A stretch of DNA of 52,437 nt from an uncultured Clostridia bacterium (GTDB lineage: Bacteria > Bacillota > Clostridia > Christensenellales > Borkfalkiaceae): assembly GCA_944375795.1 (NCBI GenBank), contig CALWAU010000057.1:1-52437 (forward strand), written 5' to 3'. The notes beneath the pieces are model-generated. The model saw only the letters and a program-made list of their open reading frames with translations. It ran no database searches and had not been told where the DNA came from. The position numbers were made by a program, and so were the translations under genes. Numbering within the stretch: position 1 is the stretch's first letter; each line of letters begins with the position of its first letter. Shown here piece by piece: positions 1,959-23,029 of this stretch.

Positions 1959-2966
1959 CTACGGACGGGAAAAGACTTCCGCGTCTCCGCCCGTGAGATC
2001 TTTCACGGAATCCCGGACGATCAGCCTGGAATCGAGCGTTACCTTTTTTGTTTTTCCGTTATGTTCAATCTGCGCGAGGAGCAGGCGGAAAGCCTCCTCC
2101 GCCATCCGGTACTGCGGAATATCCACCGTCGTCAATCCGTAAGGAATCACCTCGATATTGTCGAAGCCGATGACGGAATAATCTCTCGGCACGTATTTCC
2201 GCACCTTCATAAGGCCCTGAATCACCGAACAGGCCCAGATATCGTTATAGCAAATCAGCAGGCTGTTTTCGGGACATTTTTTTAGGATAAGCCCGGCAAT
2301 TTCCTCCTTGGAGGGCGGATAAATCAGGCAATGCGCATAGGGCATTCCGCAATCCTGCAATCTCTTTCTGACGGTATCGGCACGGCGCATATCGAATATA
2401 TCGCCCCTGTTCCGGCCGATATAAAAAATATTTTTGTAGCCCATGCGGATTCCGTAATCCACGGCCTCCCGCGCGCCCGTAGTATCGTCCGTCTGCACAC
2501 AGCTGATATCCGCATCCACGTTCAGCCCGAAAATGACGGAGGGAATGGAGGATTCCACGAGACTTTTCACGATATTTTTATCGTAGCCGAAAAAATCGAG
2601 AATGATCCCCGACACCATTTTTTCCTTCATCAGATCGATGCCGCACTGCGTGCGCCTGCTGTCCCCGGCGAGATTATAAAAAATCGTCTCGTAATCGTTT
2701 TCTTCTGCCAGCTTGTCGATCGCGCAGAATACGTTTGCATAGAAAGGATTGGTCAAATCCCGCAAAATGACGCCGATCGTCCGGTAATCCTTGCTCGATA
2801 TTCTCCTCGCAAAATAATTGGGCGTATATCCCATCTCCTTGGCGATGCGGATAATTTCCTTTCTGCTTTCTTCGCCTACGCCCTCCTTGTTGTTGAGCGC
2901 ACAGGAAACGGTGCTTTTGCTGTAGCCCGTAATTTTCGCCAGATCTTTTATTGTTACTTTTGCCAT
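1959..2966 (-). CDS. LacI family transcriptional regulator
   Basis: A 335-residue sugar-responsive repressor. Residues 1-50 are the LacI helix-turn-helix (VTIKDLAKITGYSKSTVSCALN) followed by the hinge helix (PNYFARRISSKD, in which Ile takes the place of the usual minor-groove Leu). Residues about 60-325 are the periplasmic-binding-protein-like effector domain, ending with the typical SVIGFDNIEV and TTVDIPQYRMAEEAF segments. It lies directly downstream of the glycan-use operon on the same strand, which makes it the likely regulator of that operon. It has its own perfect promoter, whose -10 box sits inside a 38-base palindrome, indicating autoregulation. Effector unknown. Confidence 0.92.
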   Translation of the reverse strand: MAKVTIKDLAKITGYSKSTVSCALNNKEGVGEESRKEIIRIAKEMGYTPNYFARRISSKDYRTIGVILRDLTNPFYANVFCAIDKLAEENDYETIFYNLAGDSRRTQCGIDLMKEKMVSGIILDFFGYDKNIVKSLVESSIPSVIFGLNVDADISCVQTDDTTGAREAVDYGIRMGYKNIFYIGRNRGDIFDMRRADTVRKRLQDCGMPYAHCLIYPPSKEEIAGLILKKCPENSLLICYNDIWACSVIQGLMKVRKYVPRDYSVIGFDNIEVIPYGLTTVDIPQYRMAEEAFRLLLAQIEHNGKTKKVTLDSRLIVRDSVKDLTGGDAEVFSRP

Positions 2967-3048: not shown

Positions 3049-6000
3049 TTATGCTTTATTATTTTTTCGCCTGAGCGCAAATCCTCCCGACATCGCGAGC
3101 AGCGACAGAATGCAGATTCCGCCCGCGGAAAGCGAAGAACCGCAGCCGCCGTTTTCCGACCACGCCGCATGGAGCACGATATCGCCCGATTGCGAAGCGT
3201 CGATCTGCGTCACGGGGGTTCCGGACAAGAGCTCGTCGGTATACCAGCCCACAAAAGTATATCCCTGCCTCTCGGGAACGGGAAGGGTGACCGTCTGGCC
3301 CTGCTCGTAAACATTCACGGCGCCCTCGGGAAGCTGTCCTCCGTTGAGCTGGTACGAAATATCGTATCTGACATTGCCCAGCTGCTTGCGGGAAAGCAGA
3401 CGCAAATCGTCGATGACGAGATTGCAGCTGTATCCCTTTTCGTAATCGTAATAGCTTCCCCACACTCCGATGCCGACGGAGCGGAGCTTTTTCCAATCGA
3501 ACTCCCGTTTGTTTTCCGGGTCATAGCCGTCGTTATAATCGCATTCGGAAGCGGTGGCCGCGCCCAGAGGGATCTCCACCTTCATCCAACCGTCGTAGCA
3601 AAGGCCGTTATAGATGCCCTTTTCGGTGGCGATAAAATTCCAGGGGACTTCAAATTCCAATCCGTCGGTCTGAATGAGCTTAATCATAAAGCCGAGTTCG
3701 CCCGCGGGCACATACGTCTCGTTGTGCAGCCAGAAACTGAACCCGCATATTTCCTTATCGGTATTGGAGGAAACGATATCCTCCACGCTGAAATTGAGCT
3801 GTCCCCAGCTGAAAGCGCCCTTGAGATTTTCAAAGCGGAAGCGCATGGCGCCGCTTCCCACCTTTACGGTCGTCCTCTCCGTCGTCTTGACGACGGTCGT
3901 ATCCAGGTCTTTCACCACCGTCCATTTGTTGACCTGATCGGAAGTTTCAAAATCGGCGATCGGGCGGGAATACAGCTCCGTTTTTTCCGCCGCCGCGTCG
4001 CGCTCCGCCTCAATCCCCGTAATCGCCACCGACATCGCCGACGTTCCCGTCGCCGAAATTCTTATACCCGTCACATTGTCGGACGTCACATAATAGGGCA
4101 ATTCGGAAAAATCGATCGTTTCGCTCACCTCCGTCTCGTCCGCAAAGGAAACGGTAAACGCCCGATAGGCGGCCCCGGCGCCGGAGCCGTCGTCATAAAT
4201 GAGATCGACCCCCAGCGCATCGCCGTAATTTTCCTCCGCCTCGAAGGAGATTTTCAGCGACGTGTCCTCCGCGGTAAAGACATCTTCCAGCGTACGTTCG
4301 ACGGAGACCGAACCGCTTGCGCCGTCCGGCGCGACCGTAAGGCGGACGCCGCCCTCGATGCTCGCTATCTCCGCGTCATAAGACGCTTCCGCCTTTTCAA
4401 AATTTTCGGACGAAGGTTTTACCAATTCGATCGTTTCGCGCACGTCCACGGTCGCAGCCGCGGCATCGTCAAAGACGGAGAAATCCGAAAGATAGGCCTC
4501 GGCCTCCGCCGTTCCCCAGACGCCGACGATCAGACGGGGATACTCCCGTTCCGTCGCGTTCACCGAAACCGTATACTTTCTCCAGCCCACGAAGTCCAGG
4601 GCGTTCCCCGTGCCGAGATTGCCCTGCTCGTCCTCCCAGAAATAATTCCAGGTTTCATGCTCGCCGTCGGCGTCATCGACATATTTGATCGTTATGCCGT
4701 TGGCATTGTTCCCCTCCAGCGCCTTCGCATTGTAGAGCCAGAAACTGAACGAACGCGGCCTTTTCGCCCCGGAACCGTCCATCAGATGACTGTCGAAATC
4801 CTGCACGTAAATCTGCGCGACGCTCCATGCGGCGCTCGCCGAACGGGCGATTTTGACACAGTTCATATCCTCGCTGTGAGAATATTCTTCGCTCTGCATA
4901 TTGCCGATATCCGAAGTGAACGCCGGATCGTCCGACCACGCGAGGGTGGTAATCGTCAGGGAGCCGAGCGCCACGCTTTTATCTCCGATCACCGGCGTCA
5001 TATTGTCCAGAAAGGCAAAATCGGAAAAATGGAAGGCGAGTTCGCTCGACGCGCCCCAGACGCCCATCTCTATCTCGGACTTTGCCAACTGCGCGCAGCT
5101 AAGATTCATCACATACCGACGGAACCCGACGAAATTCAGGCCGAACGGATTGTCCGTGACGACGGAACCGCTCTCGTCGTACACGACGATCCCCAGATTT
5201 TCGTCCCCGTCCGTAAACTTGAAATAAATTCCGCCGCTTTCCGCCGCCGTTTCATTGTATACCCACAGAGAAAATCCCTTCGGATTGACGAGCTCCGTCT
5301 TGTTGCGCATTTCGTTGAAGGGGAAATAGACGGCATAATTCAGATTTTCCGCCGCCTCCGCGCTTTCCACGCCGACGGCGATCGATTTTCCGTCCTCCTG
5401 CTTGCTCTTGGCCGCATCCGTACTCGGTTCCGCCTTTACCGTAATGTCCTCCCCGCTGAACGAAGCGGCGCGCAGCCGTATATCGTCGATGGGCAGACGC
5501 ACGGGCGTCCTCGTCTCCTCCGCCTCCGCGGAAGAAGTGCAGATAAGCTCCAAATCGTACAGATAAAATTCCGCATCCGCGGCGCCGTCGATTCCGAAGG
5601 TCATGCTCTGAATATCCGCCACGGCAGCCCCTTCCGGAACGCAGGAAAAGTCTACGGCCACGGAAAATTCGCCCGTCTGCGTCAGGGACGGAACGGGGTC
5701 GCCGATCGTCTGATTGGCGCCTACTTTCCATTCCCCCTTTTCTCCGAGCCCCGCCCTGACGACAAATTCGTCCGAATCCGTCAATGCGACGGGGTTATAC
5801 AATTTGAAAGACATCCCGATCACCCCGGCAAAATTTTCCGACGCCTCGGCGATCTTGTCCGCCACGGCCGTGCTGACGCCGGCAAAGGCCTCGCCCTCTT
5901 TGTCCAAGGAGACCTTCAGAGACGCTCCGTCCTCGGCATACAGCTCGCTGTTCTCCATGGCGACGGTGGCACGGCCGCCCTCGACGGCCTTTGTCCAGCG

Positions 6001-6120
6001 TTCGAGCTCGCCCGAATCGCCGAACGAAGCAGACCCTTCGATCGCCGCTGCCGTTCCGCCCGCCACGGCTATCCCGAACACGCATCCGAACGAAAGAATC
6101 GCGCGTAAAAATTTGTTCAT
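3049..6120 (-). CDS. Large secreted wall-associated protein with repeated modules and an InlB-type repeat
   Basis: A 1023-residue exported protein. Residues 1-26 are a signal peptide (MNKFLRAILSFGCVFGIAVAGG). The body has a module seen three times: an FSxWxxN strand (about residues 278, 458, 800) followed by a GVWG strand (about 350, 532, 885). This reads as beta-sandwich, carbohydrate-binding-like domains (inference). Near residues 915-985 is a Listeria-Bacteroides/InlB B-repeat (YQLNGGQLPEGAVNVYEQGQ, then GYTFVGWYTD). The C-terminus is NGGCGSS, a hydrophobic segment and RRKNNKA, a membrane anchor resembling a sorting signal but without LPXTG. Its ATG overlaps the stop of the GH116-like gene (ATGA) and has GGGAGG before it. 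As the last operon gene it probably binds or presents the target glycan at the surface. No catalytic motif was recognised. Confidence 0.8.
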   Translation of the reverse strand: MNKFLRAILSFGCVFGIAVAGGTAAAIEGSASFGDSGELERWTKAVEGGRATVAMENSELYAEDGASLKVSLDKEGEAFAGVSTAVADKIAEASENFAGVIGMSFKLYNPVALTDSDEFVVRAGLGEKGEWKVGANQTIGDPVPSLTQTGEFSVAVDFSCVPEGAAVADIQSMTFGIDGAADAEFYLYDLELICTSSAEAEETRTPVRLPIDDIRLRAASFSGEDITVKAEPSTDAAKSKQEDGKSIAVGVESAEAAENLNYAVYFPFNEMRNKTELVNPKGFSLWVYNETAAESGGIYFKFTDGDENLGIVVYDESGSVVTDNPFGLNFVGFRRYVMNLSCAQLAKSEIEMGVWGASSELAFHFSDFAFLDNMTPVIGDKSVALGSLTITTLAWSDDPAFTSDIGNMQSEEYSHSEDMNCVKIARSASAAWSVAQIYVQDFDSHLMDGSGAKRPRSFSFWLYNAKALEGNNANGITIKYVDDADGEHETWNYFWEDEQGNLGTGNALDFVGWRKYTVSVNATEREYPRLIVGVWGTAEAEAYLSDFSVFDDAAAATVDVRETIELVKPSSENFEKAEASYDAEIASIEGGVRLTVAPDGASGSVSVERTLEDVFTAEDTSLKISFEAEENYGDALGVDLIYDDGSGAGAAYRAFTVSFADETEVSETIDFSELPYYVTSDNVTGIRISATGTSAMSVAITGIEAERDAAAEKTELYSRPIADFETSDQVNKWTVVKDLDTTVVKTTERTTVKVGSGAMRFRFENLKGAFSWGQLNFSVEDIVSSNTDKEICGFSFWLHNETYVPAGELGFMIKLIQTDGLEFEVPWNFIATEKGIYNGLCYDGWMKVEIPLGAATASECDYNDGYDPENKREFDWKKLRSVGIGVWGSYYDYEKGYSCNLVIDDLRLLSRKQLGNVRYDISYQLNGGQLPEGAVNVYEQGQTVTLPVPERQGYTFVGWYTDELLSGTPVTQIDASQSGDIVLHAAWSENGGCGSSLSAGGICILSLLAMSGGFALRRKNNKA

Positions 6121-8549
6121 CTTGCTCCCTCCCGATCAATTTTTATTTTTATGCCGTCCAGAGTGCCGCACAGCATCTGAACCTCATAATTCGTCCCGTC
6201 TATCCGGCACAGACCGAAGCCCTGTGCCGTCGTAAAAAATGTCGTATAGGCTTCCTTGCGCGCCCTGAAGGATATCTCCCCCCGCGTCATGTCGAAGCCG
6301 AAGCCGGAATACGCAAGCAACAGCCCGTAGCTTGCAAGGCTTCTCGCATAATGATTGCCGCACTCCACCTCGTTGAAGGGATTCCGGTTTTTGCCGTCGT
6401 AGCGCATGCGAACCCCTTTGACGATCTCGAGCGCCTCTTTCTCATAGCCCTCGTAAAGAAGGCAGGTCGCCACCTGATATTCTATGCCCGTCCAGACTTC
6501 GTCGGAATAAACGAAGGGAAGGCGGGGCCTCTTCGTGCCCTCGGGCCAGCTGCACACGAGAAGTCCCTTTTCGTCGTTCAGCGCATACACCCTCTGCACG
6601 TTGAGATGAGAGGAAAAATCCTCGCGGAAATTGTACCTGAAAATATTCCTGACGGCGCTCTTTACGTGTTCTTCGGGCAGTATATAACCCAGGCCGTCGA
6701 TATGCGCCAGGGTCTGCCCGAAAATCTGATCGGAAAGACAGCCGTCGCCGTATTGGTATTTGTATTTGTCCACGTCGTCGATCACCTGGACGTAATACCC
6801 GTTCCGATACAGCTTTTTATCCATGCGCTCGCTGCCCTTCTCAAACGCCGCAAGCCACCGCTCGGCCGCCTCGTCGTCCCCCATGCGGCGCGCCATCGCA
6901 CTGCCCGCTTTGAGCGCCGCAAAAAATATGGAATTGGTGAGGGAGCTCTCCCCGTAAAACTCAATGTCATAGGTATTGTGCTGACGGCTGTCCAGAACGC
7001 AGTCCCCGTCCGAATCCCAATAGGAAAACGCAAAATCCAGGGCCTTTTTCATCTTCGGATAGCATTCCCGGAGCAAATCGTCATTCCCCGAAAATTTCCA
7101 GTCGCGGTACAGGCGGACGATACAGCCCATCTGCCCGTCCGCGGCGGGCAGCATATCCCATTTTTTGTCCCCGAAAACCTGCATGGTACGGAAGGCCATA
7201 TTTCCGTCCTCGTCCGTTTCCAGCAAAAATTCCGTCCTGCGCATATTCTGTTCCAGCCGCGGGAACAAAAATGCCAGGGTCTGCGCATAATTCCACACGT
7301 GCGTGCAATTCCCCTCACAGCTTCCCGCGTGGTCGAAACACCCTTCCCAGCAGAGAAAGGTTCCTTCCCGGCCGATGCGGAAACAGGTCGTGGAGCGCAG
7401 GACGCTCAATGTCCCGTTGACGGCGTCGATAATCCACTTGTCGGCGTCGGAGGAAAAAAGCGCGTCCGCAAAATTCAGACTGTCCCCGTACAGCCGATCG
7501 TAATTTTCGTAAAAATATTTCGCGGCGGACAGAGCATCGGGAAAACGATAGGAGTAATAGTTTTTTACGATTTCGTCCCCGCAATCCCGGGCGGGACACA
7601 CGTGTCCCTCCCAGCTTTTCGGCCGATTCGGGAAACACCAGGACAAAACAAACTCAAATTCCGCCTTTTCGCCGGGCTGCAGAAGCGCGCCGCAGGCGAG
7701 CGAGCCCGTTTTGAGGCGCACGACAAATTCCAGCCTGCCCTCCCCCTGATTGGAATCGGCGGAATTGTAGCTGAGTTTGCCGTCCGCGGCAAATTCGTTG
7801 AAGAAATCATGCGCGCCGTCCCACCAGCCGCCCGCCAGCCACTCGGGCTTGACGGTGTAATTCCGGCAAGGAGTGGAAAGACACATCGTACCGTAGCGGC
7901 GGCTGTTTTCCGGCGCCTTGGAAGAAAAGATGAGCCCGCGGATTTTCCCGTCGTCGAAAAACTCGTTTTTCTGCTCGTCCCTAACGATCATATTGCCGAA
8001 AAGGTCGAACCCGCCGCAGGAAGTAAAATTGGACTGTGTGGCACAAACGGAAATTTCGCAGGGCTTATCCCCCTCGTTTCCGACGGTATAGCGGAAACAT
8101 ACGGCGGGAATCCCGCTGTCCTCCTCATTCCCGGGGATCAGGGGCGAAAAGGCCGTCATATTTACCGTCAACGGCAATTTGTCCGCGGACAAGTCGACGT
8201 TCACGAACGGTCCCCGCCCGTACAGTTCCGCGCGGTCGAACCGGGGAATGCCGGCCATTTCGTAGCTGGCATACCCCACGGGACGGCTGAAAGGTTCGCG
8301 GAGCCTGGATTCCAGAATGCGGACCTCCCCCTTTTCTCCTTCAAAGCGGGAGAACAGGGAAAAGAAGGTGTACGGATAGGGCGTGTTTTTGTTCGGTTTG
8401 TTGAAAATCTCCCAATCGCACAATTGTCCCCGGTTGCCGACGGAAATACTGCCCGTCCCTATTCCGCCGAGCAGAAACCGAAATTCGGTATCCGCGTCCG
8501 TAAAGCGCCTCGTATTGCTCTCTATCTTGTTTCTGTCGATCAGATTCAT
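6117..8549 (-). CDS. Glycoside hydrolase, GH116-like
   Basis: An 810-residue enzyme without signal peptide or membrane segment, so probably cytoplasmic. The first part has the GH116 N-terminal signature (LLGGIGTGSISVGNRGQLCDWEIF, residues about 26-50, shown in part) of the bile-acid beta-glucosidase GBA2 family. The catalytic (alpha/alpha)6 part has CWEGCFDHAG and CTHVWNYAQTLAFLFPRLE (residues about 398-430) and HNTYDIEFYG (about 524-533). By analogy with characterised GH116 enzymes, a Glu of the first region and the Asp of NTYD are candidates for nucleophile and acid/base; this alignment was done by eye. Known activities include beta-glucosidase, beta-xylosidase and N-acetylglucosaminidase. 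It would cleave oligosaccharides brought in by the adjacent CUT1 transporter. It starts 5 bases after the preceding gene's stop; the ribosome-binding site is weak, suggesting coupling. Confidence 0.78.
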   Translation of the reverse strand: MNLIDRNKIESNTRRFTDADTEFRFLLGGIGTGSISVGNRGQLCDWEIFNKPNKNTPYPYTFFSLFSRFEGEKGEVRILESRLREPFSRPVGYASYEMAGIPRFDRAELYGRGPFVNVDLSADKLPLTVNMTAFSPLIPGNEEDSGIPAVCFRYTVGNEGDKPCEISVCATQSNFTSCGGFDLFGNMIVRDEQKNEFFDDGKIRGLIFSSKAPENSRRYGTMCLSTPCRNYTVKPEWLAGGWWDGAHDFFNEFAADGKLSYNSADSNQGEGRLEFVVRLKTGSLACGALLQPGEKAEFEFVLSWCFPNRPKSWEGHVCPARDCGDEIVKNYYSYRFPDALSAAKYFYENYDRLYGDSLNFADALFSSDADKWIIDAVNGTLSVLRSTTCFRIGREGTFLCWEGCFDHAGSCEGNCTHVWNYAQTLAFLFPRLEQNMRRTEFLLETDEDGNMAFRTMQVFGDKKWDMLPAADGQMGCIVRLYRDWKFSGNDDLLRECYPKMKKALDFAFSYWDSDGDCVLDSRQHNTYDIEFYGESSLTNSIFFAALKAGSAMARRMGDDEAAERWLAAFEKGSERMDKKLYRNGYYVQVIDDVDKYKYQYGDGCLSDQIFGQTLAHIDGLGYILPEEHVKSAVRNIFRYNFREDFSSHLNVQRVYALNDEKGLLVCSWPEGTKRPRLPFVYSDEVWTGIEYQVATCLLYEGYEKEALEIVKGVRMRYDGKNRNPFNEVECGNHYARSLASYGLLLAYSGFGFDMTRGEISFRARKEAYTTFFTTAQGFGLCRIDGTNYEVQMLCGTLDGIKIKIDREGAR

Positions 8550-8554
8550 GATGG

Positions 8555-11020
8555 TTATCCCTTGATGAGTGTTATATCGTTAAATATCGCCTTATTGTAT
8601 CCGGTTGCGTTGCGATTGCTCGCCATGACCCCCACGAGGAGGGTATCGGGAAGCGTCTCATATTCCAGCTCGCTCACCTGCACAAAGTTTATTCCGTCCT
8701 CCGAAATATAGGTGGAAAGCTTGTTTCCGCTGCGCACGATGCGCAGGTAAGTGCCGAGCTCCGCGTGCCCGTAATTGCTGAAGGTGGCGGGCAGGCTCGT
8801 CGCCTTCCGGTGCAGCGCCAGATACATTCCGTTATTGTAGCAGCCGATAAAGGCCATTTTGGAAGCGGAAATGATCGATTCGCGCACCATCAGCCCGCCC
8901 TTGGCCCCGCTCGCCGAATAGTTGGTTTTGTCCATCCGGGCGGTATAGGTAAAGTCGCCGCTGACCGTGAGATAGGCAAACCGCCCGGAATCGGCCGAAG
9001 CGCCGATATCGTAACCGTTGGCGTAAATGGTCACGGAAGCCGCATTCTGCTTCGTATACGAAGCCGTGGGGACGAAATCGTCTCCGCCCGAAACGATGTC
9101 GCAGCTCTGGTAATAGTCCTCCGTCTTTACCACCTTCGCCGCAATATCGCGGGTAAAGGCGGGATAGGAGACTTCCAGGGCGCCGTTTTCGCCCGCCGTC
9201 GCGGTTACGGTATCTATCGTCTCATCCGCATAGGTATCGATAAATTCTATCGTATATTCGCCCGGCGCCATTCCCGTCAGGGAAATCGTCCCCGCCTGTA
9301 TCTGCAGAGGCTGCGTATAGCCTTCCAGCATATAGTTGTAATCGTGCTTGCTGTCCTTTATCCACAGATATGCCCTGTTGTTTCCGCACCGCAGACCCAT
9401 GTACCACATCACGCCGTCGCCCGCCGGCACGGAAAGATTGTCGAACGCCGCCGCATTCCGCAGGTCCGCGCCCTTGAAAAGCGTATTGACGGCACGATAA
9501 TGGGAATACAAATTATATTCGTCCACATACGAACCCCAGGTCCAATGCATGGTCGTGCCGAGGCTGTTGGAGAAGATGGAGGAATACAGTCCGTTGTGAA
9601 AGGACACGCCCTCCCGATCGTTTTCGCGCTGGATATCGCCCGAAGGAGAGAGCCCGTACTCGCCCAAAAAGGTCGGCTTATCCGCCGCGGCGAACCGCGC
9701 ATTGACGATGCGTTTGACCGCCTTTACCGACTCGTACTGCTGTTCTCCGAACCAATTGTTGTGAATCGTATACCGGTGGACGGTGGTCAGATCCATGGAT
9801 TCTAGCGCCCAGAGATCGGCGCCGCTGTCATCTGCGGAACTGCCGCAGCTGGTGGAAACGAGATGGTCGTAAATGTCGAGTGATTTTATATACTCGGCCA
9901 TTTCGGTATGCCAGGAGGTAATTCCCGACAGCGCGGTATAATAATCGCCGCCGTTCCCCCATACCATCAGCTCGGCGTCCACCTCATTCCACAGCTCGTA
10001 AAGCATCAGGGAAGGGCTGTATCCCCAGCGGGCCACCACGTAACGCAGATAATTTTTCGTCGCCCTCTTGGCCTCCGGGTCGGTAAAGAAATCGGTCACG
10101 TTGTCCACCGGGCCGCCGTTTGCGGAATTGTACGGATTGCGCGCCCAGCCCCACTCGGAGAAGGACTCCGTACCGATATCGAAATCACCCCAATGATATA
10201 AGGTAAGGCGATAAAACAGACCCAGTTCGTCGGCGAGATTGACCTTGTAATCCGTCTTGAAGCCGATTTTCTGGTTATAGTAACCCAGCCCGTTATAGCA
10301 ATCGCTCCATTCCAGTTCTCCGTCCTCTCTCGTCCATTCGAGCTGATCCCCCTCGCAGAGGTCGAACTGCGTCATGTTTCCGCCGTTGGCGGCGAGCTGC
10401 TGAAACCAGCGATCGTCCCCGTACGTGCCGTCGAGGTGGTCGTCGCCGGCCCATTCCCAGCCGCAGAAATTGTTTCCTATCCCCACGAAGGGACTGCCGT
10501 TGTCATATTCCAGGTGACGATGATCGTCCGAAACGGTCAGAAACGCGTCCTTCGTCCCGGGCTTGACGGAAAAGCTCCTGGTTCCCTCCTCGGGATAGCG
10601 CGACGCGACGCCGTTGCGCACGATGGAAATATAGTAGGTATATTCCCCGGCCGAACGGGGCGTAAACCGCATGCGGAACTGCCCCTCCCCCACCTTCGTC
10701 AGCACCTCCCTCTGCCCGTTGAGCCGACGGGAATATTCCTCGTACCAGAACATGGGTACGTTATAGGAATTTCCCTGTTCGTCCTCGATACAGGCGGCAA
10801 CATTGATCTGCGAGGCGTCGTAGACGTTGATATTCTCGTCGAGGTCGATTTCCACGCCGATTTCGGCAAGCTCGTACATCTGCGCATTGTCGAGATTGGA
10901 ATACACCTCTCTGACTGTCGGCCCCCCGCCCTTACACGCCGTAAACAGCGCAAGCAGCGCCGCAAAACATACATTCAGCATCAGCAGGCCGCAAACGAGC
11001 CTTTTCTTTGTTCTCTTCAT
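8555..11020 (-). CDS. Lipoprotein glycoside hydrolase, GH-A clan, with DUF5060-like N-terminal domain
   Basis: An 821-residue exported lipoprotein: signal peptide and lipobox LFTAC put the lipidated Cys at residue 29. Residues about 35-150 form an Ig-like domain of the DUF5060 type. Residues about 160-560 are a (beta/alpha)8 hydrolase of the GH5-like clan: LYELWNEVD (about 341-349) carries the expected acid/base Glu and FLGEYGLS (about 451-458) the nucleophile Glu. The C-terminal 200 residues are a concanavalin-like domain of the DUF1349 type (GGLMVRESI, LALHRK, YLRIVRSGNKLSTYISEDG). It should act outside the membrane as an endo- or exo-glycanase that feeds the co-transcribed transporter. The exact polysaccharide cannot be deduced. 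The next gene upstream is 9 bases away. Confidence 0.8.
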   Translation of the reverse strand: MKRTKKRLVCGLLMLNVCFAALLALFTACKGGGPTVREVYSNLDNAQMYELAEIGVEIDLDENINVYDASQINVAACIEDEQGNSYNVPMFWYEEYSRRLNGQREVLTKVGEGQFRMRFTPRSAGEYTYYISIVRNGVASRYPEEGTRSFSVKPGTKDAFLTVSDDHRHLEYDNGSPFVGIGNNFCGWEWAGDDHLDGTYGDDRWFQQLAANGGNMTQFDLCEGDQLEWTREDGELEWSDCYNGLGYYNQKIGFKTDYKVNLADELGLFYRLTLYHWGDFDIGTESFSEWGWARNPYNSANGGPVDNVTDFFTDPEAKRATKNYLRYVVARWGYSPSLMLYELWNEVDAELMVWGNGGDYYTALSGITSWHTEMAEYIKSLDIYDHLVSTSCGSSADDSGADLWALESMDLTTVHRYTIHNNWFGEQQYESVKAVKRIVNARFAAADKPTFLGEYGLSPSGDIQRENDREGVSFHNGLYSSIFSNSLGTTMHWTWGSYVDEYNLYSHYRAVNTLFKGADLRNAAAFDNLSVPAGDGVMWYMGLRCGNNRAYLWIKDSKHDYNYMLEGYTQPLQIQAGTISLTGMAPGEYTIEFIDTYADETIDTVTATAGENGALEVSYPAFTRDIAAKVVKTEDYYQSCDIVSGGDDFVPTASYTKQNAASVTIYANGYDIGASADSGRFAYLTVSGDFTYTARMDKTNYSASGAKGGLMVRESIISASKMAFIGCYNNGMYLALHRKATSLPATFSNYGHAELGTYLRIVRSGNKLSTYISEDGINFVQVSELEYETLPDTLLVGVMASNRNATGYNKAIFNDITLIKG

Positions 11021-11029
11021 AAAATCTCC

Positions 11030-11887
11030 TTATAATTTCAAACCCGTGCTGGCGATCCCCGAAATCAGCTTTTTCCGAAAGATAAAAAAGATGATCATGA
11101 CGGGGATACAGGATATGGTCAGCGCGGCCATCAGAACCGTAGGGTCCTGAGAACTCAGCGCCCCCATAATGACGGTGAGACCGACCGGAAGCGTCATCGC
11201 CGTCTGTTGTTTGAGAAATATCATCGGCGCAAAAAAGTCCCCCCAAACGCCGTTGAAACACAGAATCAGATTTACGACAATCGTGGGCACCGACAGCGGC
11301 GCGACGATGTGAAGAAAATTCTGAAAGGTATTGCAGCCGTCGATTTTCCCCGCCTCCTCCAGCTCCTTGGGCAGCCCCAGAAAAAACTGCCTCATCATAA
11401 AGATGCAGGAGGGAGAAAAGATGGAAATGATCACGAGGCTGTTGAGATTGTTGATGAGCTTCAGTTTTACGATCGTCCGGTAATTCTGAATGATCGTCAG
11501 CTGTCCCGGAAGCATCATCGCGACGACAAACAGCATAAAAATCAAATTCTTTCCCCGGAAATTCAGGCGCGAAAGCGCATAGGCCGCGGGCAGACACACC
11601 ACCGTCTGCAAAAGCGGAATCAATACGGAAACATACACGCTGTTCAGAAAGAAGCGCCCGAATATATCGATTTTGGCAAAAATGGTCTTATAGCCGAAAA
11701 CGGAAAAATCGTGCGGGAAAAAGGTGGGCTGGGGAGACATGTATTCCGCCGACGTCTTGAAAGAGCTGGTGATCATGAAATAGAAGGGAAAGAGCATGAA
11801 TATGCAGACCACCGCGCCGATCAGAAATACGCCGAGCTTTCCGATCGCCCTCTTTACCGCGCCCGGCTTCAAAGAAATCTCAATCAT
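11030..11887 (-). CDS. CUT1 sugar ABC transporter permease, MalG-like
   Basis: A 285-residue permease with six predicted membrane helices, the first at about residues 18-38. The cytoplasmic EAA loop is EAGKIDGCNTFQNFLHIVAPL minus its last residue (about 188-207), the docking site for the ATPase. The C-terminus is the usual short KKLISGIASTGLKL-type tail. It is the second membrane subunit of a carbohydrate importer and overlaps the other permease by 8 bases. No ATPase gene lies in the operon, so a shared MsiK-type ATPase encoded elsewhere is likely. Confidence 0.92.
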   Translation of the reverse strand: MIEISLKPGAVKRAIGKLGVFLIGAVVCIFMLFPFYFMITSSFKTSAEYMSPQPTFFPHDFSVFGYKTIFAKIDIFGRFFLNSVYVSVLIPLLQTVVCLPAAYALSRLNFRGKNLIFMLFVVAMMLPGQLTIIQNYRTIVKLKLINNLNSLVIISIFSPSCIFMMRQFFLGLPKELEEAGKIDGCNTFQNFLHIVAPLSVPTIVVNLILCFNGVWGDFFAPMIFLKQQTAMTLPVGLTVIMGALSSQDPTVLMAALTISCIPVMIIFFIFRKKLISGIASTGLKL

Positions 11888-12782
11888 CTTTTACCATCAC
11901 CCTCGACAACAAAAATTGTCCCAACGTCATCGCCAGAACGATGACAAAAATGACGATGGCGATCACGGAGGCATAACCTACATCCCGATAGAAAAATGCC
12001 TGCTGCCACATCATATAGCTTATGGTGACCTTGGTATCCCCGAACATGCCGTTCAGCATGATATAGATGGGGTCGAATACCTGGAAGGAGGAAATAAACG
12101 CCGTCACGAACAAAAATACGAGCGTGTTGCCGATGAGCGGCAGCGTAATTGCAAAAAACTGCCGGGTCTTCGTGCCCCCGTCTATTTCCGCGGCCTCGTA
12201 ATAGGCCCTGGGGATATTCCGTATCGCCACCAGCGCAATGATGAAGAAAAATCCCACGCCCTTGAAGATATCCACCAGCATGACGGAATTCAGCGCAATG
12301 TCTGCATCCGTCAGCCAGCCGACAGGCCCGAGCCCGAAAATCCGCAAAATTCCGTTCAGCACCCCGAACTCGTAATCGTACATTTTATTGAATACCAGGG
12401 CGACCACCGACATGGGGATGACGATCGGCATGAACAGCGCGCTTTCCATGACAAACTGTCCCACCCGGTTTCTGACGCGCGACGCGACGAAATTTGCCAG
12501 AATCACCCCCAGCCCCACCTTCGCCAGGACGGTGACGACGGTGAAATAAAAGGTATTTCCGATGACCGTCCTGAAATTTTCATCCTCGAACAGCTTGACG
12601 AAATTTTCGACGCCGACAAAAGTCATGTCGGGGCTGAGAAAATCCCATTCGTAAAAGGCGATGCGAAAGGTGAGACAGGCGGGAACCGCGGCAAAGATCA
12701 TAAACAGCGCAAACGCGGGCAGAACGAACAGATATCCGATATTGTCATATCTTTTCTTGAGCTTCGGACATTTCATCTTCAT
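11880..12782 (-). CDS. CUT1 sugar ABC transporter permease, MalF-like
   Basis: A 300-residue permease with six predicted membrane helices. The EAA loop is YEAAEIDGGTKTRQFFAITL (about residues 190-209). The start is placed at the ATG at 12782 because it overlaps the binding-protein stop as ATGA; a longer frame exists upstream but lies inside the binding-protein gene. A second ATG two codons later is an alternative. It forms the transmembrane pore with the adjacent MalG-like protein. Confidence 0.92.
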   Translation of the reverse strand: MKMKCPKLKKRYDNIGYLFVLPAFALFMIFAAVPACLTFRIAFYEWDFLSPDMTFVGVENFVKLFEDENFRTVIGNTFYFTVVTVLAKVGLGVILANFVASRVRNRVGQFVMESALFMPIVIPMSVVALVFNKMYDYEFGVLNGILRIFGLGPVGWLTDADIALNSVMLVDIFKGVGFFFIIALVAIRNIPRAYYEAAEIDGGTKTRQFFAITLPLIGNTLVFLFVTAFISSFQVFDPIYIMLNGMFGDTKVTISYMMWQQAFFYRDVGYASVIAIVIFVIVLAMTLGQFLLSRVMVKDD

Positions 12783-14146
12783 TCCCCGAGATACTGCTGA
12801 ATGGTGGCCGCCAGGGAATCCAGGCTGTTGCTGCCCGTCCCCGTCAGCGTAAATCCGTTGGTGTCGGACATATAGCCCCCGAACCACTTTCTCACTTCCA
12901 GCTCGATGGCGCTGTAAGAGCCGGGCGCGGGCACGGGCGTGGCGTATTGCAGCGCGTCATAGAAGAGTTCGCCGCTCTCCGGGAAGAAATCTTTCTGCAC
13001 CAGGATATCCATCGCCGACTTAATCGACGGAATCGCCCAGGGAGATTCCGTGAGATATTCCTCCTGGAATTTCTTGCTCGACAGGAATTTGGCAAGTTCC
13101 CATGCCTCTTCTTTGTTCTCGCTGGTCTTGAAGATGGGACAGGCCCCCACGCCGATGGTGGAATGCAGACTTCCGTCCACGGACGGGAAACTCACCACGT
13201 CGTAGCCCTCCCGCAGCTTGGAGACGTCGTTCGCGGAACCGTTGAAGCCTCCGTTATAGAGATAGCTGACATATTCCATCGTCACCGACATGAAGCCGAG
13301 GCGGTTGGTACAGAACAAATCGTATTCCGTCGTCCCCCCGAATTTCGGGCTGTACTGATGCTTCACGTCCTCCGCATTCATGATATCGTAAAGCATCTGA
13401 AAGCATTGCTTGGCATCGCCGTCGTTGATCTGCACGGTCTTCCAGTCCTCCGAAAGAATGGACGTCCCGTAGGCGTTCAGCCACGGCTCGATCGTGAGGA
13501 AATACTGGTTTTGCAACTTGATCCCGTACTTGTTGTTCACGCCGGAAACCACGTTGTTCGCCGTGATCTTTTCACAGCAATAGAGGAAATTTTCTATCGT
13601 CCACCCCTCGTGCGGATAATTGGGGTCGGTCGGGGCGATTCCGGCCTCCGAAAGCACGTTTTTGTTATAAAACAGGCATACCCGGTTCCAGGTCGTCGGA
13701 AGAGAATACATCTTTCCGTCATACTCGTGCGCACTATAGAGAATGGGCGCCATCTGGTCGAACGATTCCTGCATTTCCGCGCGGTCCCGCTCTATGTAGT
13801 CGTCGAGGGGCAGAAGCAAATCGCTCGCCACCAGGGACGCGATGGCCTCCGTCGCCAAATCCCCGCAGTCGGGAAGATTTCCCGAGTACGCCGACGTGGC
13901 GATCTGCTGCGCAAGCTCTCCCCAGCTGCCGGCCTGGACGCCCTCTACGCGCACCTCTATCCCCGTCTCCTCCGTAAACGCTTTCAGGCGTTCCTCCCAC
14001 TGCGAAATCAGGCCCGCGTTGCACCAGAACAGCAATTCCTTCGAGCCGCCTCCGCCGATGATGGGATTGTCTCCGCCGCAGGCACCCATGGGTGCGACCA
14101 TCGCAAAGCCCAAAATCCCCGCGAGCAATTTTGTGAGTCTTTTCAT
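12779..14146 (-). CDS. Sugar ABC transporter substrate-binding lipoprotein
   Basis: A 455-residue extracellular solute-binding protein of family 1 (CUT1). Signal peptide with lipobox PMGAC; the lipidated Cys is about residue 23, followed by a short Gly-rich linker. Features typical of the family are LLFWCNAGLISQWEERLKAF at the first strand, the MYSLPTTWNRVCLFYNKNVL hinge segment (about residues 143-162), and aromatic residues suited to stacking sugars. It captures the oligosaccharides released by the secreted hydrolase. A GGAGG ribosome-binding site lies 7 bases before the ATG, and the gap to the kinase gene is 53 bases. Confidence 0.92.
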   Translation of the reverse strand: MKRLTKLLAGILGFAMVAPMGACGGDNPIIGGGGSKELLFWCNAGLISQWEERLKAFTEETGIEVRVEGVQAGSWGELAQQIATSAYSGNLPDCGDLATEAIASLVASDLLLPLDDYIERDRAEMQESFDQMAPILYSAHEYDGKMYSLPTTWNRVCLFYNKNVLSEAGIAPTDPNYPHEGWTIENFLYCCEKITANNVVSGVNNKYGIKLQNQYFLTIEPWLNAYGTSILSEDWKTVQINDGDAKQCFQMLYDIMNAEDVKHQYSPKFGGTTEYDLFCTNRLGFMSVTMEYVSYLYNGGFNGSANDVSKLREGYDVVSFPSVDGSLHSTIGVGACPIFKTSENKEEAWELAKFLSSKKFQEEYLTESPWAIPSIKSAMDILVQKDFFPESGELFYDALQYATPVPAPGSYSAIELEVRKWFGGYMSDTNGFTLTGTGSNSLDSLAATIQQYLGE

Positions 14147-14199: not shown

Positions 14200-15117
14200 T
14201 CAGCTCCGGGCGGCGATAAACGCCTCCACTTCTTCACGGCGGGGCAGCGAGGGAATGGCCCCCGCCCGCTGTACGGTCAAAGCGCCCGTCGCGTTGGCAA
14301 AGCGCACGGCCTCACGCAGCGTCCTCCCCTCCGAAAGCGCCACCGCCAACGCGCCGTTGAAACTGTCCCCCGCCGCGACGGTATCCACGGCCTTCACCGC
14401 ATAACCGGCAATCATCTCGCAGCCGTGTTTGTCCGCCACCAGCGCACCGCGGGCACCCAGGGTAGCGACGACCGCCCCTACCCCGCAGGCGAGCAGCGCC
14501 TTCGCCGCGGCCGTCACCTCCTCTTCCGTTTCCGTCGGCAGCCCCGTCAGGGCCGAAAGTTCCCTTTCGTTCGGCGTAAGATAATCCACTCTCCCGAACA
14601 GTTCTCTCTCCGGCTTTGCCGCGGGCGCGGGGTTGAGCAGCACCTTTGTCCCGTAAGACTTCGCCCGAACAATCAGTTCCCTCGTCACCTCGGGGCGCAG
14701 TTCAAATTGAAAAACCGCCAATTCGGCCCCCTTCAGTACCCCGTCTATCCTCTCGATTTCCCGCTGCCCGAAGGCATAATTCGCCGAGGGGATCACGCAG
14801 ATGCGGTTCTGTCCGCTCCCGTCCACCTGCACCTGGGCCACCGCCGTGGGCAGATCGCAGGAAAACACATATTCGTCGCTTATCCCCTCCGCCCTCAGGA
14901 TCTCCCGAAACGCCTCTCCGTCGGAATCCCGCCCGAGCATGCCGCACATGATCGCATCTCCCCCCAGCCGGGCGGCCGCCACGCACTGATTGGCGCCCTT
15001 TCCGCCCGGAAAGCGGGCGATGGATTCACCCGACACCGTCTCTCCCGCCGCGGGAAACTTCTGCATCCTCGCGACGTTATCCATCACGAAGGAACCTATC
15101 ACCGCGATCCGCGCCAT
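14200..15117 (-). CDS. rbsK: Ribokinase-family (PfkB) sugar kinase
   Basis: A 305-residue ATP-dependent sugar kinase. It has the N-terminal PfkB signature (FPGGKGANQCVAAARLGGDA, residues about 36-55) and the C-terminal signature DTVAAGDSFNGALAVAL (about 244-260), whose AAGD Asp is the catalytic base. Length and motifs match ribokinase, which phosphorylates O5 of D-ribose; enzymes of this type are known to accept other pentoses, including D-arabinose. The start codon lies one base after the stop of the SIS gene with GGAGGAGTGAG before it, so the two are translationally linked. The pairing with an arabinose-5-phosphate-isomerase-like gene suggests a pentose other than ribose (inference). Confidence 0.88.
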   Translation of the reverse strand: MARIAVIGSFVMDNVARMQKFPAAGETVSGESIARFPGGKGANQCVAAARLGGDAIMCGMLGRDSDGEAFREILRAEGISDEYVFSCDLPTAVAQVQVDGSGQNRICVIPSANYAFGQREIERIDGVLKGAELAVFQFELRPEVTRELIVRAKSYGTKVLLNPAPAAKPERELFGRVDYLTPNERELSALTGLPTETEEEVTAAAKALLACGVGAVVATLGARGALVADKHGCEMIAGYAVKAVDTVAAGDSFNGALAVALSEGRTLREAVRFANATGALTVQRAGAIPSLPRREEVEAFIAARS

Positions 15118-15118
15118 C

Positions 15119-15700
15119 TCACTCCTCCTCCCGCCGCAGCATTTCCCCCAGGGAGCCGTTGGGATGATACCTGTGAAAATCCGCGCGCGTAAATTTTCTC
15201 CGGCGGGAGAGCTCGCAGGCGATGGCGTCCCCCAATACCAGGGTCACGGTGCTCGACACGGTCGGCGCCAGGTTCCACTCGTCCGCCTCCGCAAGCTTCG
15301 GATAAAATATCCCGCAATCGCACAGCCTGGCCAGCTCGCTGTCCCTCCCCGACGTGAATGCGATCGTCTTTACCCCGTTCTCCTTCAGCGGAAGCACGTT
15401 CTGGACGACCTCCCTCGTATTGCCGCTGTTGGAGATCAACACGGCGACGTCGCCCCGCGCGATCATGCCCAGGTCCCCGTGCATCGCCTCCGTCGAATGC
15501 ACGAAGATGGCGGGAATCCCCAGCGACGAGAACGTCGCGGCGAGCTTCCCCGCGATGTGCCCGCTCTTTCCGACCCCCATGAACGCCACGCGGCCGGAGC
15601 ACGCCGAAAGCATCTCCAGCGCCTCCCCGTACTGCTCCTCGGGCTCCTCCATCAGCCGGGTTATCCCGTCCCGCTCCCTCTCCATCGTCTCTTTCAACAT
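15119..15700 (-). CDS. SIS-domain sugar isomerase, arabinose 5-phosphate isomerase-like
   Basis: A 193-residue single SIS domain. It has the KdsD/KpsF/GutQ hallmarks: MGVGKSGHIAGKLAATFSSL, VHSTEAMHGDLGMI, LISNSGNTREV, LAPTVSSTVTLVLGDAIA and the terminal HPNGSLG. These enzymes interconvert D-arabinose 5-phosphate and D-ribulose 5-phosphate. The two CBS domains of most KdsD proteins are missing; SIS-only forms are known. A Gram-positive cell should not need the enzyme for KDO, so a catabolic role next to the pentose-type kinase is likely, though a sugar-phosphate sensor role is possible. The start at 15700 was chosen for its GGAGG 7 bases upstream; an upstream in-frame start at 15781 lacks one. 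First gene of the operon, with a 130-base leader. Confidence 0.82.
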   Translation of the reverse strand: MLKETMERERDGITRLMEEPEEQYGEALEMLSACSGRVAFMGVGKSGHIAGKLAATFSSLGIPAIFVHSTEAMHGDLGMIARGDVAVLISNSGNTREVVQNVLPLKENGVKTIAFTSGRDSELARLCDCGIFYPKLAEADEWNLAPTVSSTVTLVLGDAIACELSRRRKFTRADFHRYHPNGSLGEMLRREEE

Positions 15701-15832: not shown

Positions 15833-15852
15833 TTACCGAACCGTTTCGGTAA
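15833..15852. promoter_or_regulatory. LacI-type operator of the glycan-use operon
   Basis: TTACCGAACCGTTTCGGTAA is a 20-bp palindrome with nine of ten base pairs matched and a central CpG, the hallmark of LacI/PurR-family sites. It begins 4 bases downstream of the -10 box, so a bound repressor would cover the transcription start. It does not fit the CcpA cre consensus. The LacI protein at the end of the operon is the obvious candidate to bind it. Confidence 0.75.
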
Positions 15853-15856
15853 ATAC

Positions 15857-15885
15857 ATTATATCACAACAAAACAGAAATTGCAA
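15857..15885 (-). promoter_or_regulatory. Sigma-A promoter of the glycan-use operon
   Basis: Minus-strand TTGCAA (15880-15885), a 17-base spacer and TATAAT (15857-15862). It is followed at once by the LacI-type operator and leads into the SIS-kinase-transporter-hydrolase operon. No other clear promoter was found inside the operon. Confidence 0.8.
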
Positions 15886-21691: not shown

Positions 21692-23029
21692 TCACCCCTC
21701 CGGCCAGGTACGATTTTCGCGGAACCACTCGGTATCCTTGAAAAGGATATCGTTATTCGAGCAGCGAACGGAAAGCCCGCCCCCGACGGAGGTGACGACG
21801 ATGTTTCCGTTCATCGGTCCGAAGCCCTCTCCGTTTTCCCCGACGACGGTGGTCACGTAAATTTTGTCCGTATACTTTGCCACGCGGTCGACAAACGCCT
21901 GGGAAGGGAACATATTGGCGACGTCGTCGGTATATTCGTCGCTGCCGCAGCAACAGCACACGACGACGATCTCCGGGCGGATGACGGAGAGAAGAACGTC
22001 GTTGCTGGAAGTGGGACTGCCGTGATGCCCGGCCTTGAACAATTTACACTGCGGAAGCTCGTTGTTTTCCACCAAGGCCTCCTCCCCCTCCTTTTCCAAA
22101 TCGCCCGTAAAGAGGTAATGATTGCTCCCCTGGGTCAACAGCATGCACACCGAATAGTTGTTTTCGTCGGAGGAATGTTCCTCGTAAAAGACGTTGTAGA
22201 GAATGCTCATTTCGATGCCCTCGGCAAGCTCGTAGGTGCGCGAAGCCCCGTTTTCCCCGTTCCAGCAGTCGAGCGCGGTATACACTTTCGTCCCGTTGTC
22301 CGCCGCGTATTCCGTCGCCGTGACATAATTGGCGTACAGCGTGGGATTGCCGCTCTCCGTCGTCAACGATTTGTTGGTGCGGGCAAACTGAATGAGCGTC
22401 CCCACTTCATATTCGTACAAAATTCCGTTGTAGCTTCCGCCGCTCTTGGTCCCCACAAAACCCGCGATATGGTCCTGGTCGGCATGGGTGGCTATCACGT
22501 ATTCGAGGACGCCGTCCGTACAATATTCGTCGAGATAGGCGGAGATGGTCCGCGCCGAACTCTGCCTCGACCCCGCGTCGATCAACACCTCCGTATCTCC
22601 CGCTTTGATGAGCGTACAGTCCCCCGTATAGGCGTTGCCGAGCATGGGAAAATGGATGCTCAGTTCTTCCGTAACGATATCCCCGCCCGAGCTGCTATCC
22701 GAGCTACTGTCCGAACTGCTGTCCGAGCTACTGTCCGAACTGCTGTCCGAGCTACTGTCCGAACTGCTGTCCGAGCTACTGTCCGAGCTGCTGTCCGAGC
22801 TGCTGTCCGAGCTGCTGTCCGAGCTACTGTCCGAACTACTGTCCGAACTACTGTCCGAGCCGCCGTCCGAATACCCGCCGTCCGAATCGCTCGCGCCGCC
22901 GGGCGGCGGAATCAATCCGTCCAGATAGCCGCCCTGCCAAAGTATGTACCCGCCCGCGATGACGAGGGCGAGAAAAATGACGAGAATCAGCAGCCCGAGC
23001 CTGCCCTTTCTTTTCCTTCTTCCTGCCAT
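21692..23029 (-). CDS. Exported ComEC-type metallo-beta-lactamase-fold protein with Ser-Asp repeat linker
   Basis: A 445-residue protein. Residues 1-36 hold a basic start and one membrane helix (GLLILVIFLALVIAGGYIL), so it is membrane-tethered and faces outside. Residues about 45-118 are a linker that includes 14 SDSS units. The rest is a metallo-beta-lactamase domain of the ComEC C-terminal type: VLIDAGS, THADQDH (a HxxxDH-like metal motif in which Ala-Asp-Gln replaces the usual His-x-Asp layout), FTGDLEKEGEEAL and KAGHHGSPTSSN. ComEC-like domains of this type are nucleases; here the DNA channel is absent. A run of four Cys (VVCCCCGS) near residue 358 is unusual. Possible role: extracellular nuclease or phosphodiesterase. 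It starts 66 bases after grcA, behind a terminator. Confidence 0.82.
   Translation of the reverse strand: MAGRRKRKGRLGLLILVIFLALVIAGGYILWQGGYLDGLIPPPGGASDSDGGYSDGGSDSSSDSSSDSSSDSSSDSSSDSSSDSSSDSSSDSSSDSSSDSSSDSSSDSSSDSSSGGDIVTEELSIHFPMLGNAYTGDCTLIKAGDTEVLIDAGSRQSSARTISAYLDEYCTDGVLEYVIATHADQDHIAGFVGTKSGGSYNGILYEYEVGTLIQFARTNKSLTTESGNPTLYANYVTATEYAADNGTKVYTALDCWNGENGASRTYELAEGIEMSILYNVFYEEHSSDENNYSVCMLLTQGSNHYLFTGDLEKEGEEALVENNELPQCKLFKAGHHGSPTSSNDVLLSVIRPEIVVVCCCCGSDEYTDDVANMFPSQAFVDRVAKYTDKIYVTTVVGENGEGFGPMNGNIVVTSVGGGLSVRCSNNDILFKDTEWFRENRTWPEG
22691..22858 (-). repeat. 12-bp tandem repeat encoding (SDSS)14
   Basis: Fourteen units of 12 bases (plus-strand unit GCTACTGTCCGA, with A/G and C/T variants at two positions) lie in frame inside the metallo-beta-lactamase gene. 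They encode Ser-Asp-Ser-Ser. The flanking units degenerate into GGSD and GGYSD. The near-identity of the units makes length variation by slippage likely. Confidence 0.9.

Follow-up and report, generated by a model that had tools for sequence, protein, structure and literature searches.

A CBS-less sugar-phosphate isomerase paired with a ribokinase-family kinase is a likely kinase-first entry route for D-arabinose in an uncultured Clostridia bacterium

Arabinose 5-phosphate is otherwise known from the making of lipopolysaccharide, and the finding of a predicted isomerase for this compound in a glycan-use operon of an uncultured Clostridia bacterium of the gut type raises the question of what it does there. 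The operon is located in a stretch of 52,437 nucleotides, called the window here, and all of its genes are encoded on the minus strand. The first gene (15119..15700) encodes a CBS-less SIS protein of the KdsD/KpsF type with 193 amino acids, a predicted D-arabinose 5-phosphate isomerase; it starts with the ATG at 15700 after a GGAGG-type ribosome site and stops with the TGA at 15121-15119. One base (15118) separates this stop from the ATG at 15117 of the second gene (14200..15117), which encodes a ribokinase-family kinase of 305 amino acids, a predicted D-arabinose 5-kinase. An earlier note on this DNA had described the two genes as lying one base apart at the head of a glycan-use operon and had read them as a possible D-arabinose catabolic route, and the arrangement proved exact to the coordinate.

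Further genes follow on the same strand. An ABC importer is encoded by genes for a substrate-binding lipoprotein (Pfam SBP_bac_1/8, 12779..14146) and two permeases (both Pfam BPD_transp_1, 11880..12782, start from scripted gene calling, and 11030..11887). They are followed by a DUF5060/GH-A (GH5-like) lipoprotein (8555..11020), a GH116 protein (6117..8549), a secreted repeat protein of 1023 amino acids with a C-terminal anchor-like tail (3049..6120), and a LacI-family regulator (1959..2966). The DUF5060/GH-A lipoprotein is a probable extracellular glycanase, because it contains a lipobox, shows weak Pfam matches to DUF5060 and Cellulase, and is similar to the PDB entry 9gmj, named 'DUF5060 domain-containing protein' (E 2.5e-60), as well as to related entries; it may be a new enzyme that cuts the glycan targeted by the operon in an endo mode. 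A literature search on the function of DUF5060 gave no useful paper, and an AlphaFold model of the protein was discarded (mean pLDDT 39.5, two-row alignment). Upstream of the SIS gene, a sigma-70-like promoter (TTGCAA-17-TATAAT, 15857..15885, minus strand) was found, and just downstream of its -10 box the 16-bp palindrome ACCGAAACGGTTCGGT (15835..15850, minus strand) represents a candidate LacI-type operator. With up to one mismatch it is the single such site in its own genome, while the reversed control pattern was absent from this genome and from that of G102, a member of the same family. Probably, the LacI regulator controls the operon by acting on ACCGAAACGGTTCGGT. Elsewhere in the window (21692-23029), a metallo-hydrolase-like protein is encoded that is anchored to the membrane and has a long linker of Ser-Asp repeats.

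The GH116 protein, the strongest clue in the window and one that the earlier note had not used, relates the operon to D-arabinan, the polymer that characterizes the cell walls of mycobacteria and corynebacteria. It matches the PDB entries 8ic6/8ic7 (ExoMA2) over its full length with E 2e-215, compared to about 1e-28 for GH116 beta-glucosidases. ExoMA2 is the crystallized exo-beta-D-arabinofuranosidase of Microbacterium arabinogalactanolyticum, in which His446 and Arg483 are key sugar-recognition differences from beta-glucosidase (PMC10509167). These residues align to H417 and R454 of the window protein, and the residues for catalysis, E431 and D557, to its E402 and D528. Full-length similarity as well as catalytic and arabinose-contacting residues place the protein among the exo-beta-D-arabinofuranosidases (subfamily 4), and the strong homology and active-site match predict that it frees D-arabinose from beta-D-arabinofuranosyl ends. 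A signal peptide is absent, as read from the sequence, in line with a predicted cytoplasmic location; ExoMA2 also works intracellularly on imported oligosaccharides (PMC10509167).

A second copy of the gene pair exists in the same genome. The genome-wide search for SIS domains gave one further strong match, on contig C86, which is 61% identical to the SIS protein of the window and whose gene overlaps by four bases with a kinase gene (59% identical at the protein level to the kinase of the window). This pair is preceded by a LacI gene, two DUF4185 (GH183) genes, with no further DUF4185 gene elsewhere in the genome, a gene for a secreted protein of 1601 amino acids, and a DUF2961 (GH172) gene. 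GH183 enzymes are endo-D-arabinanases and GH172 enzymes exo-alpha-D-arabinofuranosidases, both degrading D-arabinan (PMC10509167, PMC10115798). Together with the GH116 in the window, the genome thus holds all three D-arabinan families known from the Microbacterium locus, distributed here between two loci that each have their own SIS-kinase pair, and the combination of GH183 and GH172 at C86 with the importer in the window is consistent with D-arabinan utilization. The secreted protein of 1601 amino acids (L023 13679-18484) has no Pfam match but is conserved at GH183/GH172 loci, with 76% identity in L065 and partial matches in L040, L067 and L069; it is possibly a new surface glycan-binding or glycan-active protein.

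The assignment of the SIS protein can be narrowed down within its family. It contains the Pfam SIS domain (PF01380, E 5e-27), lacks a CBS domain, and is matched by the KdsD/KpsF models of NCBIfam at about E 1e-48, which is under their full-length cut-offs (163.5 bits compared to a cut-off of 203.7 for TIGR00393). Given its length of 193 amino acids, the missing CBS domain and this score, the protein is not a KdsD sensu stricto but belongs to a CBS-less branch next to 5uqi. The latter, which we take to be c3406 of E. coli CFT073, an arabinose 5-phosphate isomerase, is the best solved relative (E 4e-55), is likewise CBS-less, and is followed by KdsD (2xhz). The residues K45, H74, E97, E138 and H179 are invariant in five relatives and align to K59, H88, E111, E152 and H193 of KdsD, which presumably have catalytic roles. 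Hence, the protein shares family and catalytic residues with KdsD, KpsF and GutQ of E. coli, whereas KdsD differs in having two CBS domains in tandem and supplies the precursor of KDO. A maximum-likelihood tree places the SIS protein of the window in a clade of nine (support 99/93) that is sister to 5uqi (91/88) and lies outside both the branch of KdsD proteins with CBS domains and the 3fxa-like proteins; eight of the nine are kinase-paired or encoded beside D-arabinan genes. The c3406 gene is presumably part of a genomic island that also contains phosphotransferase genes, and we know of no D-arabinan enzymes linked to it; no paper on c3406 turned up in the literature searched. A function as hexulose-phosphate isomerase was rejected, because the HxlB model matched with E 5e-11, far under the KdsD/KpsF models. 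Family, catalytic residues and context suggest that the SIS protein converts D-arabinose 5-phosphate into D-ribulose 5-phosphate.

The kinase belongs to the PfkB family (PF00294, E 1e-65) and exceeds the curated cut-off of the NCBIfam ribokinase model TIGR02152 (313.9 compared to 299.65 bits). The earlier note had stated that ribokinases can phosphorylate D-arabinose at O5, but an ordinary ribokinase is very poor on this sugar, with a KM of 470 mM for the E. coli enzyme (PMC9604405); the case rather rests on the SIS-paired kinases, which are altered near the sugar C2. Ribose is contacted in E. coli ribokinase by N14, D16, G42, K43, N46, E143 and D255, D-arabinose loses the N14 bond in a molecular-dynamics model, and the exchange A98G increased kcat on D-arabinose 15-fold (PMC9604405). 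The window kinase shares with RbsK the family, the catalytic Asp255 and the sugar residues D16, G42, K43, N46 and E143, but Asn14 is replaced by Val. Position 14 is V, I or M in 16/16 paired kinases with a readable N-terminus, which keep the remaining ribose contacts. Many relatives from pairs also show Ala98 changed to Gly (12 of 18, plus one Ser), whereas Ala occupies this position in all 28 unpaired kinases from this order as well as in four PDB ribokinases (Fisher p 2e-8, descriptive here as below given the non-independence of related loci). In the window kinase itself, Ala98 is retained, and Q99 is present as in its nearest relatives.

The idea that the loss of Asn14 is exclusive to the pair was rejected, because position 14 is Val in 10 of the unpaired kinases, while 21 of the unpaired kinases and PDB ribokinases taken together have Asn. 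Moreover, an Asn-to-Ala mutant of the Arabidopsis ribokinase still used ribose (cited in PMC9604405), so that Asn14 is not an absolute criterion for ribose use. In L168, L182 and L185, a DeoC-like gene (confirmed by Pfam for L182 alone) is found no further than about 1.5 kb from a ribokinase-like gene with Val14, which encodes a probable deoxyribokinase. Since Val14 also occurs in unpaired kinases, several of them near DeoC-like genes, the loss of Asn14 indicates 'not ribose' rather than 'arabinose', and it seems to mark a substrate without the ribose-type 2-OH. This hydroxyl is missing in 2-deoxyribose, the 5-phosphate of which has no C2 hydroxyl and is not isomerizable by an aldose-ketose isomerase; hence, D-arabinose best fits both genes. 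Residues and context therefore predict, as the combined reading of the two genes, that the window kinase would phosphorylate D-arabinose at O5.

The combination is not restricted to this genome. SIS-based searches in the order, the phylum and 84,980 species genomes, with gene calls at related loci by a simple script, found genes for a CBS-less SIS protein and a ribokinase-like kinase side by side at 18 distinct loci, and this recurrence together with the second copy in the same genome argues against a chance pairing. GH183, GH172 or GH116 genes were found within 12 kb at 8 of the 18 paired loci compared to 1 of 70 CBS-bearing KdsD loci (descriptive Fisher p 5e-6). Kinase pairing was seen at 0/70 of the latter, while at least 21 of them have a kdsA-like neighbor in a simple motif test. 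The eight loci comprise the window, C86 of the same genome, G035, G296, two Clostridia MAGs (sheep colon, chicken), an Erysipelotrichaceae MAG and a Candidatus Izemoplasmatales MAG, so the check proposed in the earlier note, a search for the same pair beside known D-arabinan-degrading families, had a positive outcome in this genome and in others. In the phylum sample, DUF4185 (GH183) was found in only 4 of 398 genomes. At one of the G296 loci, the SIS gene is frameshifted (L041 9478-9726) beside an intact kinase gene, which could reflect decay or an assembly error; another SIS gene is present in G296 (L040).

FucI is the usual D-arabinose isomerase, and in the usual route it forms D-ribulose, which is then phosphorylated by ribulokinase. 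G102 contains a homologous operon (identities of 60% for LacI, 37% for the secreted protein, 68% for GH116, 57% for GH-A, 70-75% for the permeases and 67% for the substrate-binding protein) without the SIS-kinase pair. Instead, a gene for L-fucose isomerase (PF07881, PF07882, PF02952; L024 16938-18683) is situated directly upstream of that operon. The sequence ACCGAAACGGTTCGGT is found there letter for letter, once before fucI (L024 18756-18771) and twice before the gene of the substrate-binding protein (L024 16695-16833), which makes three of the four exact sites of G102. The fourth (L162 8156-8171) lies on another contig before a DUF4886 lipoprotein gene (L162 7151-8119), a candidate for a further member of the D-arabinose regulon of G102. 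Absences in the window genome were tested family by family by profile search and are weak in a 93%-complete MAG; with this reservation, PF07881 had no match, which indicates that a FucI-type D-arabinose isomerase is absent, while ribulose-5-phosphate epimerase (RPE) is present. The simplest reading is that kinase and SIS protein do in the window genome what FucI and a presumed ribulokinase do in G102, which would make this a clear example of one pathway replacing another under the same regulon. FucI was found together with an FGGY kinase at two other GH116 or GH183 loci (L031, L150).

Collectively, the GH116 match, the C86 pair, the recurrence, the replacement of FucI, the kinase residues and the absence of kdsA and fucI strongly support the D-arabinose catabolic reading of the earlier note. 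As judged from sequence comparison, the SIS-kinase pair very likely represents a kinase-first entry route for D-arabinose via arabinose 5-phosphate. The ABC importer would take in D-arabinan oligosaccharides, from which the cytoplasmic GH116 would release D-arabinose at beta-D-arabinofuranosyl ends; the ribokinase-like enzyme would form D-arabinose 5-phosphate by phosphorylation at O5, and the SIS enzyme would convert it to D-ribulose 5-phosphate that enters the pentose phosphate pathway. The second copy of the module would serve the GH183/GH172 alpha-D-arabinan locus on C86. Such a kinase-first route would replace the usual isomerase-first route.

It might also be that the pair handles another sugar from the operon, a hexose or other pentose; the SIS protein would then isomerize hexose phosphates or sugar phosphates in general, and the kinase would have a broad pentose or hexose range. 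Of the 18 paired loci, 10 have no D-arabinan genes but DapA-like aldolases, RbsD or other transporters as neighbors, so that the module may serve several sugars. However, the grouping of the SIS protein on the 5uqi/KdsD side, apart from 3fxa-like or other short SIS proteins, the recurrence with GH183/GH172/GH116 and the FucI replacement point to D-arabinose, and 2-deoxyribose 5-phosphate is an impossible substrate for the isomerase, all of which makes another sugar unlikely. In the absence of D-arabinan genes, SIS-kinase pairs adjoin DapA-family aldolase genes in L066 (9057-11520), L145 (9046-11941), L146 (7937-10948) and L042 (7650-12055), with TRAP or other transporter genes at the first three, RbsD-like genes at L145-L147 and ribose-type ABC transporters at L149. 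D-arabinose and pyruvate would be the products of a DapA-family KDO aldolase; hence, as a guess, the aldolase-linked pairs are possibly loci for KDO or ulosonate breakdown. Two Lactobacillaceae loci, L068 (3089-10329) and L070 (7232-11402), contain a CBS-less SIS gene, PTS subunits and DapA-like as well as KDPG-aldolase-like genes but lack a ribokinase, and L068 also carries transketolase and transaldolase-like genes. Rather tentatively, the pair could be considered a widespread, undescribed D-arabinose module with a ribokinase re-tooled at Asn14 and the 98/99 lid. Some bacteria would use it for D-arabinan; others, in which it is paired with a DapA-like aldolase, would use it for breaking down KDO-like ulosonates, with D-arabinose and pyruvate as products, and arabinose 5-phosphate would then be a general catabolic intermediate.

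It is quite improbable that the kinase does the catabolic work while the SIS protein is accessory, regulatory or dispensable, for example only balancing ribulose 5-phosphate and arabinose 5-phosphate. A precedent exists in the Rbl system of Citrobacter rodentium, where the KpsF-like isomerase gene beside a ribulokinase gene was deleted without a growth defect and is dispensable for growth on D-ribulose (PMC12307932). That kinase is, however, an FGGY D-ribulokinase making ribulose 5-phosphate directly, whereas a ribokinase-type aldose kinase needs an isomerase, so the case differs from the window pair; moreover, paired genes overlap or sit a few bases apart in several lineages.

The earlier note had also held that Gram-positive cells should not need the isomerase for KDO. 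This is not generally true, because KDO clusters with CBS-type KdsD exist in Negativicutes and in the same order, as in L044 (8541-11527: kdsA, kdsB, kdsC-like, KdsD with CBS domains), and the order is thus not devoid of KDO synthesis; those isomerases nevertheless belong to a different family branch, and the proposed check for KDO genes found no match to TIGR01362 (KDO 8-phosphate synthase, kdsA) in the 93%-complete genome. A biosynthetic use of the SIS protein, supplying arabinose 5-phosphate to the synthesis of KDO or of a different cell-surface sugar, could draw on its KdsD homology and on these clusters, but it has hardly any likelihood given the absence of kdsA, by which a KDO role of the pair was rejected, the missing CBS domains, the position in an import and glycosidase operon, and the separate branch of CBS-bearing KdsD, which is kinase-paired at none of 70 loci.

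Returning to the kinase-first route for D-arabinose, two described systems are close to it. The D-arabinan locus of M. arabinogalactanolyticum likewise combines an ABC importer with an SBP_bac_8-type binding protein, GH183, GH172, a GH116 of the same kind and sugar-metabolizing enzymes nearby, and its scheme leads to ribulose 5-phosphate by only 'a putative isomerase and kinase' (PMC10509167). Here, in contrast, the kinase is of the ribokinase type and the isomerase a phosphosugar isomerase, and the window operon has only GH116, with GH183 and GH172 at the second locus. PUL42 of Dysgonomonas gadei also degrades D-arabinan with GH172 and GH183 and has a dedicated D-arabinose entry enzyme, which is, however, a fucose isomerase for free D-arabinose instead of a kinase plus phosphosugar isomerase (PMC10115798). 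Our literature search found neither a catabolic arabinose 5-phosphate route for D-arabinose nor a kinase-first route in D-arabinan catabolism, which is not proof of being unpublished. Each enzyme family is known; what appears to be new, and is well supported by the sequence comparisons, is their combination into a predicted kinase-first D-arabinose route in D-arabinan loci.

Research has only begun to clarify how D-arabinan is consumed by bacteria of the gut and of other habitats. If true, the kinase-first route would be a second solution to the entry of D-arabinose and would provide natural D-arabinose kinases; arabinoside synthesis depends on such kinases, and the E. coli enzyme was made suitable for it only by engineering (PMC9604405). 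Furthermore, arabinose 5-phosphate isomerases that stand as orphans in bacteria lacking KDO would gain a physiological role.
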